From Gemmatimonadota bacterium (GTDB taxonomy: Bacteria > GCA-2686955): DNA of 6,891 nt. This document shows, one piece after another, positions 1-6,769 of this stretch. The position numbers were made by a program, and so were the translations under genes. Under the pieces are notes generated by a model. The model saw only the letters and a program-made list of their open reading frames with translations, had not been told where the DNA came from and did no database searches. The DNA is taken from NCBI GenBank assembly GCA_002686955.1, contig NYZA01000034.1, positions 1 through 6,891 on the forward strand, read 5' to 3'. Position 1 is the first letter of the stretch; each line of letters opens with the position of its first letter.

Positions 1-3
1 CGC

Positions 4-2250
4 GTGCCACTGCCGCACCTAAGCGACGAATACCGATTTAGGATCGGCGCCGCCCTCGCTGTCTGCATCCCGCTCTTCATGCTCCTCTGGGGGGGCACCT
101 TTCATGGACCGATGCGCTCTCCCGTAGCGCTGGCGCAGCATGTCGTTCTCATCGGTATGTGCTTCTTCGCGGCACGGCGACTCGGTAGCTTGGGCGGATT
201 CGCGCGGAAGGGCGACCGCCGGCTGATCATCGCCGGAACGGCACTCTTGGCCTACGTCGAGCTGAGGGCGATCACTGCGGCCTATCCTCGCTTCTCGGGA
301 ACGGCCGCGCTGGCCGTGATCGCCGGTGTGGGGCTGGTCGTCGTAACGCTCTCCTACGCGCGCGGGTCGGCCGAGATTCGCCGGCATGTGCTGACCGGCG
401 TGGCGCTCCTGGGAGCGATCGTTGCGGCGATCGCGCTGGTCCAATGGTCCAGAGAGCTGACGCCCCGCGCCAGCGCACCCTTCGGGCACCACAACCTGCT
501 CGGAGCTTTCTTGGCGCTCGTGCTTCCGGTGCAGGCCGCGCTGACCCTCTCGTCGGCTCACGACCGCTCCGAACGCTCGATCGGCGCGGTCGCGGCGGGG
601 CTTGGACTGGTGGCGCTTCTCGCCACCCGATCGCTTGGATCGGTGATCGGGGTCCTGGTGGCGATCCCGGCGGTGCCGCTGGCCAATCTCTTGCTTAGAC
701 CGGCCGGATCGGACCGTCCACGTCGCCCGGCCGGCGTGCTGGCGGGTGCGGCGATCGCGGCGCTGGTGGCGGTTGCCGTGGTGCCCACGACCGAGGCTGG
801 GCAGGCGCTGTCGACGCGGATGGCGCGCCTGGCCTCGGGGGGAGGCGACCGCTCCGGCTCGGAACGGATCGAGTTCTTCAAGGCGGCATCGGCCGGTGTC
901 CGGGAGGTTCACCCCTGGATCGGATTCGGCACGGGGATGACCCCCTTCGCCTTCCCACTCGATCTTCGCCAGAGAGTGGTGCGACAGGCGGAAGGTGTTG
1001 CGGTCACCCATCTGCATTCGACGCCGGTTCAGGTCGCCTATGAGCTCGGCCTGGTGGGGCTGGTTCTCGCCACACTCACCGGCGGCTTGGCGACCGCGTC
1101 GGTCGCCCGCCGACTTCGGGTCACCGAGCCTGGAACCGACCGAACGGTGCTGCTGGCGGCGCTCGGCGCGGGCGTGGCCTACGGAGTTCGCTGCCTGACC
1201 GACGTGAACTTCCTCGCGCTTGCCGTCCCATATACCGGCTGCGGACTGCTCGGGTTGGCTCTCGCGGTGCCCTCGGATGGCGAATCGGGCGCCGGCGCCA
1301 ATGGTGACGAAGCCGTGGCGGAGCGCCTGCCGGGGCAGGGGTTCCTCTACGCCCTTCTGGACGTCCCCGCTCTGCTCCTTATCCCGCTCCTGGTTCGAGC
1401 CGATCTGGCGCACCGGCGGGCCGACGCCGGTTTCGCCGCGACGGAGCAGATCACACAGGCATCACTCGTGGAGGCGCTGGATCACTACAAGGCGGCCCAC
1501 CGCTGGGATCCGAAATTCGGCTTCTACGCCTTCGAGGCGGGGGTTCTAACCGAGGCTCTGTCGGAGCTGGAGCGGCGGCCCGAACGCCTCGATGAGGCGG
1601 ATCGACTGCTCGCCGAAGCGATGCTGGCGACACCCACCGTGCCGGGCTACGCCCTTCATTTGGGATGGCTCCGCTTGCGGCGCGGTCAGCTCGAAGATGC
1701 GATCGGTCCGATCTCGCTCGCGGCCACGGTGGAGAACCGCTCCGCCTTCGCGCAACCGGTGCTGGGGCGTCTGCTGCTGGAGCGCGGAGACATGGCGAAC
1801 GCGGTGGAGGTGTTCACCGAGATGCACCGCCAGCGCCCGATCTGTGTCTGCGCCGAGATGTTCCACCAACCGCCGCTCGCCGAGAAGATGCCGGCCATCC
1901 TAGACGAGGTCGGGAGAAGAGACGAGATGGCGGGGCGTGCCGCCCGCGCGCTTTTCGAGTCGTGTCGAGACGAATCGCGGATCGTGGACAGGCAGACGCT
2001 CCACAGAACCGACGACCAGAATCCTTGGAAAGCCCGCTCACTCTATGTCTTCCGCCGCCCCGGCGTCACCACTCTCACCGCGCCCTTCGTTCTTCGCGTC
2101 ACCGAATCGAGCCGACGTCTCAATCGAACCCGGGCGAGCATGAAGCTGCACGCGGAGATCGATCGGCGATCCGGCCCGGCGCGGGCCCGGCCCCTACTCG
2201 ACTCGCGCTTCCGGGCGGCACGCCCACTCTTGCCGCCGGAGTTTCTGTAG
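4..2250 (+). CDS. O-antigen ligase (Wzy_C/WaaL-like) membrane protein with C-terminal TPR region
   Basis: This is a predicted polytopic inner-membrane protein of 748 residues if it starts at the GTG at 4. About ten to twelve hydrophobic segments lie between residues 12 and 465, for example around 12-34, 100-118, 130-147, 161-182, 192-224, 243-261, 343-362, 402-422 and 446-464. The Wzy_C signature is visible: FGHHNLLGA near 160-168, then a large polar loop at about 283-342 with ERIEFF, HPWIGFGTG and HLHS, followed by YELGLVGLVL. Family members move lipid-linked glycan onto lipid A-core or protein, or polymerise it, on the periplasmic side. The loop is the usual catalytic site. Residues about 478-660 are soluble and helical with TPR-like pairs (for example RLDEADRLLAEAM and GDMANAVEVFTEMHRQRP), a common fusion in this family. 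The last 45 residues are Arg-rich and unrecognised. The frame is open to the window edge, so the true start may be upstream. The family call is firm; ligase versus polymerase and the substrate are not known. Confidence 0.82.
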   Translation: MPLPHLSDEYRFRIGAALAVCIPLFMLLWGGTFHGPMRSPVALAQHVVLIGMCFFAARRLGSLGGFARKGDRRLIIAGTALLAYVELRAITAAYPRFSGTAALAVIAGVGLVVVTLSYARGSAEIRRHVLTGVALLGAIVAAIALVQWSRELTPRASAPFGHHNLLGAFLALVLPVQAALTLSSAHDRSERSIGAVAAGLGLVALLATRSLGSVIGVLVAIPAVPLANLLLRPAGSDRPRRPAGVLAGAAIAALVAVAVVPTTEAGQALSTRMARLASGGGDRSGSERIEFFKAASAGVREVHPWIGFGTGMTPFAFPLDLRQRVVRQAEGVAVTHLHSTPVQVAYELGLVGLVLATLTGGLATASVARRLRVTEPGTDRTVLLAALGAGVAYGVRCLTDVNFLALAVPYTGCGLLGLALAVPSDGESGAGANGDEAVAERLPGQGFLYALLDVPALLLIPLLVRADLAHRRADAGFAATEQITQASLVEALDHYKAAHRWDPKFGFYAFEAGVLTEALSELERRPERLDEADRLLAEAMLATPTVPGYALHLGWLRLRRGQLEDAIGPISLAATVENRSAFAQPVLGRLLLERGDMANAVEVFTEMHRQRPICVCAEMFHQPPLAEKMPAILDEVGRRDEMAGRAARALFESCRDESRIVDRQTLHRTDDQNPWKARSLYVFRRPGVTTLTAPFVLRVTESSRRLNRTRASMKLHAEIDRRSGPARARPLLDSRFRAARPLLPPEFL

Positions 2251-2260
2251 GTGTAGGTGG

Positions 2261-2442
2261 TAGCCAGCGTTTCTCACCAACTTTCTGCTGTGGCGGCGCA
2301 TCTCCGCACCCTGGCAGCACTTCTCCCCGTTTCGCTTTGTGCGACGTGCAACCAGCACGCCTCCGCGCGAAACGGTGCGAAGCACCGCCAGGGCACGAAT
2401 TTGCGCCCCCTCGCGACGAAAGTTGGTGAGAAATGCGGGCTA
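2261..2442. repeat. 182-bp imperfect palindrome filling the convergent intergenic gap (MITE-like or long 3'-UTR hairpin)
   Basis: The left arm (2261-2335) is the inverted copy of the right arm (2367-2442). The outer 24 bases match at 22 positions, including a perfect 15-base core (2270-2284 TTTCTCACCAACTTT against 2419-2433). The inner about 52 positions match at roughly two thirds with one gap, and include a perfect 9-base pair CCGTTTCGC (2327-2335 against 2367-2375). The 31-base centre holds a small tip hairpin (CGTGC 2345-2349 with GCACG 2355-2359). Both outer ends are TA, which could be the target duplication of an IS630/Tc1-type non-autonomous element. Several inner mismatches are transitions that become G-U pairs in minus-strand RNA, that is, in the 3' UTR of the DAHP synthase gene. 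It contains no gene. It may also terminate both convergent transcripts. The structure is certain; its nature is inferred. Confidence 0.8.
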
Positions 2443-3789
2443 GGAAATTCTGCCCTCGCCGCCTAGGCGGCGAGCAAGGAGCAGCGCCACTTCCAGGCTC
2501 TGGGAGTAATTGAGCCGGGGATCGCAGAAGGTCTCATAGCTTTCGTCCAAGTCGTCTTCGGTCAGGCCGAGGGCTCCACCGATGCACTCCGTGACCCGCT
2601 CCCCGGTGAGCTCGAGGTGCACACCACCCAGAATCGTGCCGGCCATTTCGTGGGCGCGAATCGTCGCTCCGAGCTCGTCCAAGATCGCTTCGAACGACCG
2701 GGTCTTTCGGCCGGACCGGGTCTTGATGACGTTTCCGTGCATCGGATCGCAACACCAGACCACCGGGAGCTTCGCGTCCCGAATCGCGCGGATCAGGGGC
2801 GGGAGGTAGCGATCGACCTGATCGGCTCCGTGGCGTGTGATCAAGACGATTCGGCCCGGCTCCGCGTTCGGATTCAGGCGGCGCGCGAGCTCCACCGCCT
2901 CTTCCGGCGCGCAAGTGGGACCGATCTTCACGCCGATCGGATTGCGAACCCCTCGGAAGAACTCCACGTGCGCACCCTCGATGCTCCGGGTGCGCTCGCC
3001 GATCCAGAGCATGTGGGCGCCGAGATCGTAATAGCCCTCGCGGCGTGGTACCGTGCGCGTCTGGGCCTGCTCGTACGGCAAGTGCAGCCCCTCGTGAGAG
3101 GTGTAGAACTCGACGCGATCCAGCAGATCGGTGCCGATCTCACCCAGCCCCTCCAGGAAACCGATCGAATCTTGAATCGCGCCGACCACCTTCATGTACT
3201 CCGCCTCGGCGGGAGTTCCATGAAAGTCCCTCATGTCCCAATACTCGGGATGGTGTAGGTCGGCGAAACCACCGTCGATCAGCGCGCGAATGAAATTCAG
3301 CGTGAGCGCGCTGTGCTGATACGCCTGGATCATGCGGGCGGGATCGGGCATGCGGCGGCGTTCGTCCGGCTCGAAATCGTTGACCAGATCCCCGCGATAG
3401 CTCGCGATCTCTTTCCCCGCGAGTCGCTCCACCGAGCTGGAGCGAGGCTTCGCGTACTGACCGGCCATCCTTCCGACGCGAATCACGGGCCGGTTCAGGC
3501 CGTAGATCAGAACCAGGCTCATCTGCAACAAGATCTTGAGCTTGCTGGCGATTCGATCGGATGTGCAGTCCTCGATCTTCTCCGCGCAGTCGCCCCCCTG
3601 GAGTAGGAAACGACGACCCTTGGCGGCTGCGGACAGTTCCGCGCGCAAACGTTCCACCTCCCCCGCCGTCACCAGTGGAGGATAGGAGCGGATCTTCTCG
3701 AGCGCCGCGTCGAGGGCAGCGGTGTCCTTGTATCTCGCTTGTTGAGTCGCGGGGCGCCGTCGCCAGGAGTCGGGGGACCAATCGGTCAT
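2440..3789 (-). CDS. aroG: Class II 3-deoxy-7-phosphoheptulonate (DAHP) synthase
   Basis: This cytoplasmic enzyme condenses phosphoenolpyruvate with erythrose 4-phosphate to DAHP, the first step of the shikimate pathway to aromatic amino acids. The 449-residue product is the usual length for the class II (plant/Mycobacterium-type) family. It opens with the typical WSPDSWR. Visible motifs are GGDCAE (65-70), VGRMAGQYAKPRS (105-117), FYTSHEGLHLPYE (228-240), GVKIGPT (286-292), DPMHGN (348-353), HLELTG (391-396) and CDPRLNYSQS (422-431). By family alignment the metal ligands are Cys68, His351, Glu393 and Asp423, and all are present. An upstream Met would add 50 residues that overlap the neighbouring gene and look unlike the family, so the ATG at 3789 is preferred, although only a weak AGG lies before it. 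The lipoprotein gene ends 46 nt upstream on the same strand, so cotranscription is likely. The TAG stop lies on the edge of the long palindrome. The symbol follows the mycobacterial class II gene; aroF and aroH are also used for this function. Confidence 0.96.
   Translation of the reverse strand: MTDWSPDSWRRRPATQQARYKDTAALDAALEKIRSYPPLVTAGEVERLRAELSAAAKGRRFLLQGGDCAEKIEDCTSDRIASKLKILLQMSLVLIYGLNRPVIRVGRMAGQYAKPRSSSVERLAGKEIASYRGDLVNDFEPDERRRMPDPARMIQAYQHSALTLNFIRALIDGGFADLHHPEYWDMRDFHGTPAEAEYMKVVGAIQDSIGFLEGLGEIGTDLLDRVEFYTSHEGLHLPYEQAQTRTVPRREGYYDLGAHMLWIGERTRSIEGAHVEFFRGVRNPIGVKIGPTCAPEEAVELARRLNPNAEPGRIVLITRHGADQVDRYLPPLIRAIRDAKLPVVWCCDPMHGNVIKTRSGRKTRSFEAILDELGATIRAHEMAGTILGGVHLELTGERVTECIGGALGLTEDDLDESYETFCDPRLNYSQSLEVALLLARRLGGEGRIS
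2455..2474. repeat. Perfect 20-bp palindrome inside the 3' end of the DAHP synthase gene
   Basis: The half-site CTCGCCGCCT (2455-2464) is followed directly by its exact reverse complement AGGCGGCGAG, with CCTAGG at the centre. As RNA it can form an 8-bp GC stem with a CUAG tetraloop. On the minus strand it lies 12 nt before the synthase stop codon and encodes the Arg-Leu-Gly-Gly-Glu segment, using CTA for Leu in a GC-rich gene. It could be an mRNA 3'-end stabilising hairpin, a protein-binding site or chance. No T-tract follows it, so it is not a classical terminator. Confidence 0.7.
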
Positions 3790-3835
3790 CGCTGCACTGA
3801 ACCTGCTGATGCGGAGATCTGGGAAAACGCTGATT

Positions 3836-6106
3836 CTACCGCAAAGACCACTCGTAGTCCCGTTCCGATGCGGGACCCAAGTCGATGCTCCACATCGAGC
3901 GTCCAAAAGTGGCGGCCGCCAACTTGCGTGATCCGACATCCAACTTCAGGTCCATGACGACTCCCATGGGCAGTCCACGACCCAAGGGTCTCCAACCGAT
4001 CCCCCCCATCTCCGAGGTGTATACGCCCACGTCGGTCGCGACGTAGAGCACGCCCGAGTCATCGGGATCCACGATGATGTCGTTCACCGATACGTCGGGA
4101 AGCGCGTCACCGATCGAGACCCATGAAGTCCCTCCGTCGGTCGTCCGATATACATGCGACATCGCTTGATCCCATTTGAAGCCCGAGAGGCTCACATAGA
4201 GAACCTCTGGATCGTTGGGACCGGGCGACACTCTGGTGACCCAGCGATCGGGAAGATCGTTTCCCACCTGTGTCCAAGACCCGCCGCCATTCCGAGTTAT
4301 TGCCACGTTTCCGTCGTCCGTTCCCGCATATATGTAGTTTCCGTCGACCGGCGATACGGCAAGGGTCGTAAGGGTTCCGTAGGTGAGATTCCCCGTTCCG
4401 GGCCCATCGGAGAGATCTCCGGAAATCGCGCTCCAATTAGCGGCGCGGTTCGTGCTTCGATAGACGCGGTGCGTTCCGAAGTACACTGTAGTGGGAGTGG
4501 ACGGATCCAGGGCGACCGGTGCATTCCAATTCTGGCGATCCGAACCGTTGATACCGTTCTTCGCCCACGAGAACGTGCTCCCACCGTTCGTCGATCGGTT
4601 GAGATTGCCCCACTGCCACTCCGCGTACACATAGTTCGCATTCGACGGATCGACCAAAACATAGAATCCGTCGCCCCCCAGGATTTCGCTCCAGTCGTCG
4701 ACACCGCCGGTGTAGGTACGATTCGTGCCGTTGTCCTGCGTACCACCGTAGAAGCGGTGAGGGTTCGAAGCGTCGATCTCGCAGCTGTAGAACTGCGTAA
4801 TAGGCAGGTTCGTCTTCTTGCTCCAGTTGGAGCCTCCGTTGCTCGAAGTGTATACACCTCCGTCATTTCCCAGCACCAACCGATTCGGATCGAGTGCGGA
4901 GATCGCCATCCCGTGATGATCGACGTGCACTCCCCATCCGACATTCCCCCAGGAATCCCCGCCGTTGGTAGAGCGGTACAGATCTAGCCCCAATACGAAC
5001 ACTCGGTCCGGGTCGCTCGGGCTGACCCGGATATTTCCGAACCACCATCCATAACTGGAGTAGACCCAGTCGAGCGCGGAGTCGTTCACTCGTGCCCAAT
5101 TCACACCACCGTCGTTCGACTTGTAGACACCGTCGAAATAGCCGACTTCGTCGGCATAGATCGCGTACACGATACGTGAATCAGATGCCGCAATCGCGAG
5201 CCCGATCCTACCGAGATCCGCGGCGGATGGAGGCAACCCTCCCGCGACCAGGGACCAACTGTCGCCACCGTCGAAGCTCGAGTAGACGCCCGACCCAAAC
5301 CCGCCGAATCGACGACGATCCGGCCTTCGGATCCGTTCCCAAGTTGCCGCCAGGAGGTGATCCGGATCCTCCGGATCGATGACCACATCGATGCAACCCG
5401 TCGAGTCGTTCACCGAGAGCACCTGTGTCCAGCTCTCTCCACCATCGATGCTCCGATAGAGCCCGCGCTCCGTATTGGTGCTGTACAGGGCGCCCATGGT
5501 CGCCGCGAATACACGATCCGAATCGGTGGGATCCACCACGATCCTGCCGATATGACGCGTATCTTCCAGCCCCTTGATCGCCCAATGATCGCCGCCGTCG
5601 GTAGACTTCAAGATTCCTACGCCTGGAAATGTGGCGCTTCCACCTCCGGGGTTCACTTCGCCCGTTCCGAGCCAGATTGTCTCGGGGTTGAGGGGATCGA
5701 CCGCCACGGATCCGGCGGCCAAGGTGGCGAACTTGTCGTGCAGGGGAGTCCAGTTGGAGCCGCCGTCGTTGCTGCGGAGCAAGCCACCGTTGGCGGCAGC
5801 GGCGTATATGATGTCGGGATCCTGGGGATGCAGAGCGATATCGGTGATGCGCCCACCGATATTCGTCGGCCCCACCAACCCCCATCGGCGCCGATCGTCA
5901 TAGGCGATCTTCGAGTGCGCATTCGCCTCCACGATCGCCCGCGCCATCGCGCGGTGGTCCATCATCCCCTTGGGATGCGCGCGCATGCGAAAGAGGTACT
6001 GATTCGGGCGTTTGCCACTCTCTTCCGATCGCGGCGCGGGATTCTTCGCGCAGCCGCAAACGAGGGCAAGAAGGAGCGGCGGAAGAATCCTTGTTGAGCG
6101 AAGCAT
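3836..6106 (-). CDS. Asp-box (BNR/sortilin-like) beta-propeller lipoprotein
   Basis: This is a predicted exported lipoprotein of 756 residues. The N-terminus is a short basic segment, a Leu-rich core (about 8-16) and a lipobox-like Leu-Val-Cys-Gly-Cys, with the lipidated Cys probably at 19. A linker precedes WGLVGPTNIGGRITDI (75-90), a common opening of bacterial propellers of this type. Twelve Asp-box motifs (S/T-x-D/N-G-G-x-x-W and variants) start near residues 112, 168, 219, 277, 330, 379, 421, 505, 551, 604, 655 and 698. Each follows a strand such as LHPQDPDIIYAAA. Boxes 8, 9 and 12 are degenerate (STNGGSTF, STNRAANW, SEMGGIGW). The count fits one very large propeller or two propellers, as in sortilin/VPS10 or GH74 proteins. 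I see no catalytic signature, so carbohydrate, peptide or surface binding are all possible. The start at 6106 is fixed by a strong Shine-Dalgarno and the signal peptide; the reading frame extends upstream but would overlap the divergent gene. There is no C-terminal sorting domain. Confidence 0.88.
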   Translation of the reverse strand: MLRSTRILPPLLLALVCGCAKNPAPRSEESGKRPNQYLFRMRAHPKGMMDHRAMARAIVEANAHSKIAYDDRRRWGLVGPTNIGGRITDIALHPQDPDIIYAAAANGGLLRSNDGGSNWTPLHDKFATLAAGSVAVDPLNPETIWLGTGEVNPGGGSATFPGVGILKSTDGGDHWAIKGLEDTRHIGRIVVDPTDSDRVFAATMGALYSTNTERGLYRSIDGGESWTQVLSVNDSTGCIDVVIDPEDPDHLLAATWERIRRPDRRRFGGFGSGVYSSFDGGDSWSLVAGGLPPSAADLGRIGLAIAASDSRIVYAIYADEVGYFDGVYKSNDGGVNWARVNDSALDWVYSSYGWWFGNIRVSPSDPDRVFVLGLDLYRSTNGGDSWGNVGWGVHVDHHGMAISALDPNRLVLGNDGGVYTSSNGGSNWSKKTNLPITQFYSCEIDASNPHRFYGGTQDNGTNRTYTGGVDDWSEILGGDGFYVLVDPSNANYVYAEWQWGNLNRSTNGGSTFSWAKNGINGSDRQNWNAPVALDPSTPTTVYFGTHRVYRSTNRAANWSAISGDLSDGPGTGNLTYGTLTTLAVSPVDGNYIYAGTDDGNVAITRNGGGSWTQVGNDLPDRWVTRVSPGPNDPEVLYVSLSGFKWDQAMSHVYRTTDGGTSWVSIGDALPDVSVNDIIVDPDDSGVLYVATDVGVYTSEMGGIGWRPLGRGLPMGVVMDLKLDVGSRKLAAATFGRSMWSIDLGPASERDYEWSLR

Positions 6107-6112
6107 TATGAG

Positions 6113-6118
6113 CTCCTT
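6113..6118 (-). promoter_or_regulatory. Ribosome binding site of the lipoprotein gene
   Basis: The minus strand reads AAGGAG, six bases before the ATG at 6106. This is a near-ideal Shine-Dalgarno and decides the start in favour of the signal-peptide Met, against the Met 81 codons upstream. Confidence 0.85.
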
Positions 6119-6196
6119 CGGTGGCTGGTATTCAGGTCCCGCGCCTGGACGCGTAGTGGAAGGATAGCCCCGACCGGCCACTTGGACCGCGCGTGT

Positions 6197-6202
6197 TACT
6201 GT
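6197..6202 (+). promoter_or_regulatory. Possible -10 element (TACTGT) for a leaderless transcript
   Basis: TACTGT fits the loose TAnnnT -10 pattern and is preceded by TG one base upstream (extended -10). It ends six bases before the ATG at 6209, so transcription would start at or next to the start codon. The absence of any purine-rich Shine-Dalgarno before that ATG agrees with a leaderless mRNA. The match is weak and no -35 is visible. Confidence 0.3.
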
Positions 6203-6208
6203 CAGTCC

Positions 6209-6769
6209 ATGTCCTGGATTCGTGAGATTGCGGAAAGCGAAGCGAGTGGACTGCTCGCGAAGCTCTATGACAAGTTGGCCCCACGGGGGGGGCGCGTGGC
6301 CCATATCCTCCGCTGCCACAGCCTGAATCCGGCGGTTCTGAGGGATCATCTGGCGCTCTATCGCACGATAATGTTCGCGCGCTCCGGGCTCTCACGACGC
6401 GAGCGCGAGATGGTCGCCACGGTTGTCTCCGCGATCAACGGCTGCCACTACTGAACTGAGCATCACGGGGGGGCCCTCCGTGCGCTGACCCGTGACCAGA
6501 AGCTCGTTGCCGCCGTTGCAGCGGACTGGCGCTCGGCACCGATCAGCGCGCGGGAGAGCGCCCTCTGCGCATATGCCGATAAGCTAACGACCAACCCACG
6601 AGAGATGAGCGAAGCGGACCTACGGACCTTGCGGTCCGAGGGCTTGGATGACGGAGACATCCTAGACCTCGCGCAGGTCGTTGCCTACTTCAACTACGTG
6701 AACCGGATCGCGGACGGACTCGGAGTGCAGCTCGAAAAAGAAGACGGCTCAGAAGAGGATTCTGAGTGA
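6209..6769 (+). CDS. AhpD-like/peroxidase-related selenoprotein (in-frame UGA = Sec)
   Basis: This is a 186-residue cytoplasmic protein of the carboxymuconolactone decarboxylase/AhpD fold, closest by eye to the 'uncharacterized peroxidase-related enzyme' group. That group has a similar length and the same layout: MSWIREI at the start, RVAHILRCHSLNPAVLRDHL (30-49), LSRREREMVATVVSAINGC (61-79), then the redox motif and QVVAYFNYVNRIADGLGV near the end. The frame has one TGA, codon 82, in C79-H-Y-UGA-T-E-H-H86. Relatives carry Cys there (CxxC). Translation resumes in the same frame for 104 codons of family-like sequence and ends at TGA 6767-6769. The mycobacterial AhpD relay Glu118/Cys130/Cys133/His137 maps with identical spacing to Glu67/Cys79/Sec82/His86, so Sec would take the place of the peroxidatic Cys. 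It probably reduces a peroxide with a thiol partner; the substrate is unknown. Met at 6209 matches the family start; a TTG nine codons earlier does not. A nonsense mutation or base error is the alternative, but it would have to fall exactly on the known Sec-for-Cys position. Confidence 0.88.
6452..6454 (+). other. Selenocysteine UGA codon (Sec82)
   Basis: TGA is in frame as codon 82 of the AhpD-like gene, directly after codons for Cys-His-Tyr and before Thr-Glu-His-His. It replaces the second Cys of the CxxC motif and is one base from the Cys codons TGC and TGT. The same frame carries the rest of the domain after it, so no frameshift is involved. Confidence 0.85.
6459..6486 (+). promoter_or_regulatory. 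Candidate bacterial SECIS stem-loop
   Basis: The upper stem pairs CACGG (6464-6468) with CCGTG (6478-6482). It can extend by a G-U pair and a G-C pair to leave a five-base loop GGGCC (6471-6475), or stay open with loop GGGGGCCCT. A lower stem AGC (6459-6461) with GCT (6484-6486) is separated by a small internal loop containing U6463. The loop Gs lie about 15-17 nt after the UGA, at the short end of the range described for bacterial SECIS elements, whose loops typically begin with G. SelB with Sec-tRNA would bind here during translation. The hairpin lies in coding sequence (His-His-Gly-Gly-Ala-Leu-Arg-Ala), so it is also under amino-acid constraint. Confidence 0.65.

Follow-up and report, generated by a model that had tools for sequence, protein, structure and literature searches.

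The window (the whole stretch of DNA analysed here, 6,891 nt) contains a reading frame that opens with the ATG at 6209-6211, meets a TGA at codon 82 (6452-6454; the only internal TGA of the frame 6209-6769) and continues for 104 more codons to a terminal stop at 6767-6769, likewise TGA. This raises the question whether the frame is a gene broken by a stop codon or one that encodes a selenoprotein, and what its product would do. An earlier note had claimed that the sequence beyond the internal TGA is family-like, which is corroborated by the coordinates and by a full-length match to the NCBIfam family TIGR01926 ("peroxidase-related enzyme"; score: 166.2 bits, cut-off: 81.8, E-value 6e-49). The 186-residue read-through product covers positions 1-177 of the 178 of the TIGR01926 model, and the match is unbroken across the TGA; therefore both halves belong to one domain. 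The same product matches the Pfam CMD family (E-value 2.6e-13), and its best match in the PDB is 6k40 (alkyl hydroperoxide reductase AhpD; residues 9-173, 2.5e-36). The start at 6209 agrees with the N terminus of the TIGR01926 family (M-x-W-I), and no Shine-Dalgarno sequence is evident ahead of this ATG. Judging from the sequence, we predict with high confidence that 6209-6769 on the forward strand is an intact gene of an AhpD-like selenoprotein from the TIGR01926/COG2128 peroxidase-related family, with selenocysteine (Sec) as residue 82.

We take 6k40 to be the DR_1765 AhpD-like protein of Deinococcus radiodurans, a member of the same family that aligns with residues 9-173 of the window protein and has CxxC where the latter has CxxU. 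The structure of the DR_1765 protein has been cited (PMC8945050). In the alignment of homologues, the TGA at 6452-6454 (forward strand, as all features of this gene) takes the second position of a predicted CxxU motif (C79-H80-Y81-U82), the first Cys of which, a putative resolving residue, is encoded at 6443-6445. Both the residue count and the alignment agree with the earlier claim that the TGA stands in place of the second Cys of a CxxC motif, with Glu67 and His86 at the spacing of AhpD: E67/C79/U82/H86 are spaced as Glu118/Cys130/Cys133/His137 of M. tuberculosis AhpD, so that by spacing Glu67 (codon at 6407-6409) corresponds to Glu118 and His86 (codon at 6464-6466) to His137. E67, C79, Y81, residue 82 and H86 are all invariant in an alignment of 13 sequences. 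The layout E-x11-C-x2-[CU]-x3-H is common to the window protein and M. tuberculosis AhpD (TIGR00777), whereas Tyr81 is found where AhpD has His132; PA0269 of Pseudomonas also has Tyr in place of His132 (PMC3141380). Membership in the classical AhpD family TIGR00777 was considered and rejected (score: 25.8 bits, cut-off: 191.95).

On this basis a mechanism can be proposed. SelB and Sec-tRNA(Sec) would decode the UGA at 6452, presumably aided by a SECIS hairpin just downstream, and the product would carry the C79-x-x-U82 redox motif within the AhpD helical hairpin. Most likely, the U82 selenolate would attack a peroxide, the putative substrate; the resulting selenenic acid on U82 would be resolved by C79 to a selenenylsulfide, E67, Y81 and H86 would relay protons, and a thiol compound, as the presumed electron donor, would reset the enzyme. 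In AhpD of M. tuberculosis it is Cys133 that attacks, and by analogy with that protein it is plausible that Sec82 is the peroxidatic residue. Direct peroxidase action of the window protein is fairly probable.

A serious rival, to which we assign a real if smaller chance, is that the selenoprotein acts mainly as a dithiol/selenothiol reductase or as an adaptor for another peroxidase (of the AhpC, AhpE or OsmC type), as AhpD does. Sec at the attacking position is, as a matter of general knowledge, typical of peroxidases, which argues against such a role. M. tuberculosis AhpD is indeed an adaptor, reduced by lipoamide and in turn reducing AhpC (PMC3141380, PMC8945050), and PA0269 reduces H2O2 only weakly (PMC3141380), which also speaks for an adaptor. 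Deinococcus becomes more sensitive to H2O2 when DR_1765 is deleted, and CxxC mutants of the gene restore less protection, in a genus without AhpC; this would fit either role (PMC8945050). For the TIGR01926-type family we infer peroxidase activity from only few Cys members, whose activity is weak. The neighbours of the gene in the window (1-6349: an O-antigen-ligase-like membrane protein, a class-II DAHP synthase and a sortilin/BNR-repeat protein) include no obvious redox partner, which leaves room for either role. Comparison of neighbourhoods likewise revealed no shared gene context that would explain the function; most of the neighbours that recur are reading frames from one small set of Gemmatimonadota loci.

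Between the O-antigen-ligase-like and DAHP synthase genes, at about 2261-2443 of the window, the intergenic DNA consists of a palindromic repeat some 184 bases long, with end arms of 25 nt (92% complementary) and inner arms of 44 nt (75%). About 40 copies of it, 82-99% identical, are present in the genome. Many copies lie at contig ends, and the repeat resembles a non-autonomous element of the MITE or REP type at which the assembly breaks. It is unrelated to the selenoprotein.

Returning to the reading of 6209-6769 as an intact selenoprotein gene, we consider the codon at the position of residue 82. The earlier note had proposed that Cys homologues be aligned across this codon, and the alignment shows either TGA (73 of 108 homologues, the window gene included) or TGC/TGT (34 of 108), with another codon in a single distant row. 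Several homologues from the 145 genomes compared have one in-frame TGA, and it falls on the column of residue 82. A search through GTDB genomes yielded at least 581 confirmed relatives, the best 80 of which have TGA in 63 cases and Cys in 17; the TGA share is a biased estimate, because these 80 were chosen by likeness to the Sec protein and by one pattern, and it suggests that Sec may be very common in the TIGR01926 subfamily. Among the matches listed, the TGA form is carried by Acidobacteriota, Chloroflexota, Planctomycetota, Gemmatimonadota, Bacillota, Zixiibacteriota, Marinimicrobia and Latescibacteria, and the nearest relatives of the window protein are about 50-56% identical to it. The TGA form is also present in several Bacillaceae, namely Bacillus, Rossellomorea and Salipaludibacillus (L063, L067, L074, L083, L092).

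These data bear on the reading of the locus as a pseudogene, that is, a Cys gene with a nonsense mutation, or as a sequencing error that turned TGC or TGT into TGA. A single base would suffice for either and the contig is short (6891 bases), but the lone internal stop coincides precisely with the column where 72 other homologues have their Sec codon, and the recurrence of the same TGA in all of them makes a sequencing error implausible. Moreover, the G+C content by codon position is coding-like both before and after the TGA, and the genome has the full Sec machinery (see below). We therefore regard a pseudogene or an error as very improbable; the earlier statement that the gene is intact is upheld by the aligned TGA codons and by that machinery.

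The genome of the window (4.28 Mb in 270 contigs, 84.5% complete) was searched for the sel genes, as the earlier note had advised, and all of them were found: selA (498.7 bits), selB (327 bits, plus 30 bits for the C-terminal part, in a single frame), tRNA-Sec, the product of selC (76.9 bits, anticodon TCA according to ARAGORN), and selD (322.6 bits). A second match to tRNA-Sec over the cut-off (contig C74, 47.6 bits) was identified by ARAGORN as tRNA-Ser and dropped. The selD gene (contig C248:6306-7232; L016:1489-2532) has its own in-frame TGA in the GGUARK motif (AGGUARK), and is predicted from its sequence to be a second selenoprotein candidate of this genome. Long genes of the genome, selA included, end at TGA and have no internal TGA, so that TGA still serves as a general stop. 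That TGA has become a sense codon throughout the genome, e.g. for Trp or Gly, has nothing in its favour beyond the in-frame TGA itself and is scarcely conceivable, given these long genes, the canonical tRNA-Sec and homologues that have Cys or TGA at codon 82 and not Trp or Gly. The pseudogene, sequencing-error and code-change readings are thus effectively excluded.

In other genomes, selA scores over the cut-off in all nine further checked genomes that carry the TGA form, but also in 7 of 10 genomes whose homologues are without TGA, hence its presence is weakly discriminating; selB is below the cut-off in one TGA-bearing genome (G062). The phylum is represented by two species among the genomes compared; the other genome (G001) also has tRNA-Sec, and no copy of the AhpD-like gene was found in it (83% complete). 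In the genome G096 (contig C1:3374799-3378689), selA and selB are followed head to tail by L031, a Cys form of the AhpD-like gene, which is located about 170 bases beyond the selB match; this hints at a link of the family with selenium metabolism.

Downstream of the UGA we identified a SECIS-like stem-loop at 6459-6486 (forward strand), with a core stem formed by 6464-6471 and 6475-6482 and an apical loop GGC at 6472-6474. Folding of the 41 bases from the UGA gives this 8-pair stem with the GGC loop (-15.6 kcal/mol) plus a shorter outer stem; the 8-pair stem starts 12 bases from the U of the UGA and the apical loop lies about 17 nt past the UGA. In the model of bacterial SECIS elements, the apical loop is small, begins with two G residues and is separated from the UGA by 16-37 nt (PMC13188914). 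The hairpin has its GG loop at the distance of this model, while its energy is unexceptional in G+C-rich DNA (z-score -0.9): about 13% of all stretches of 41 bases in the window reach the same stability, and a 51-base stretch prefers a different structure. Rfam searches at gathering scores reported nothing in the window, thus no match to a SECIS family.

The comparison of homologues was based on six core pairs, 6465-6470 with 6476-6481 (hairpin A). At least five of these pairs can form in 40 of 70 Sec homologues, nearly all of which retain the GG in the loop, and a shifted hairpin (B) is found in 15 more; hairpin A or B is thus present in 55 of the 70 Sec homologues, as compared with 3 of the 23 that have Cys. 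When the pairing partner was slid by 1-3 bases as a control, only 0-5 of the 70 Sec homologues still paired. When the 3' sides were dealt out among the sequences, they paired equally often (mean 41, versus 40 observed), so that the data speak for conservation of the hairpin and not for covariation. Another downstream hairpin (CGACCUC...GAGGUCG) is located about 17 bases after the UGA in a group of Sec homologues, for example L064, L101, L116, L122, L125 and L126. It appears as if the position of the predicted SECIS had shifted within the family, judging from this alternative hairpin in some Sec homologues.

A tree was calculated for 92 proteins, with residue 82 entered as Cys in every row and with an arbitrary root. 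It requires 2 changes between Sec and Cys, compared with 20.7 in shuffles; one clade of 16 Cys rows sits among Sec rows, and the window gene forms a lone branch (length 0.8). Because the root is arbitrary, the direction of the change is not settled by the tree. We tentatively speculate that Sec could be the old, prevailing state of this subfamily over many bacterial phyla, that the large Cys clade (Bacteroidota, Bipolaricaulota and others) could have arisen from a Sec ancestor by a reversal from Sec to Cys within a Sec tree, and that the window gene could have branched off early and retained Sec.

The statement of the earlier note that Sec-containing AhpD-like proteins are known from metagenomes was borne out by the literature, and it extends to the TIGR01926 subgroup. 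The Sargasso Sea survey of Zhang and Gladyshev (2005) reported 27 Sec-containing proteins of the AhpD-like type (COG2128) with CXXU (PMC1088965), and the GOS survey by the same authors (2008) reported 299 "AhpD-like 1" proteins with CxxU (PMC2398784); the family is included in a 2022 review (PMC9312934), and a 2026 review lists it as TIGR01926 with CxxU, giving MCB9421940.1 as an example (PMC13188914). The window protein shares with the AhpD-like 1 selenoproteins the same full-length model and a CxxU motif with Sec in the second position, the Cys homologues having CxxC; it differs from them in sequence divergence only (about 50-56% identity to the nearest, and a lone branch). It is not a member of two related families of selenoproteins with the AhpD/CMD fold, NF041238 (AhpD_rel_CFYUT; score: 77.6, cut-off: 175) and NF053654 (GroundWater_YciW; score: 37.8, cut-off: 310).

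Altogether, the AhpD-like COG2128/TIGR01926 CxxU selenoprotein family has been known since 2005 and is common, and the window gene is a new, divergent but ordinary member of it. A pipeline unaware of Sec would cut this gene at residue 81, which is corrected by the reading given here, and the reading adds a case of predicted Sec use from a rarely sampled phylum. The 63 TGA codons among the best 80 of at least 581 relatives suggest that database entries may be cut short for many TIGR01926 genes of environmental genomes.
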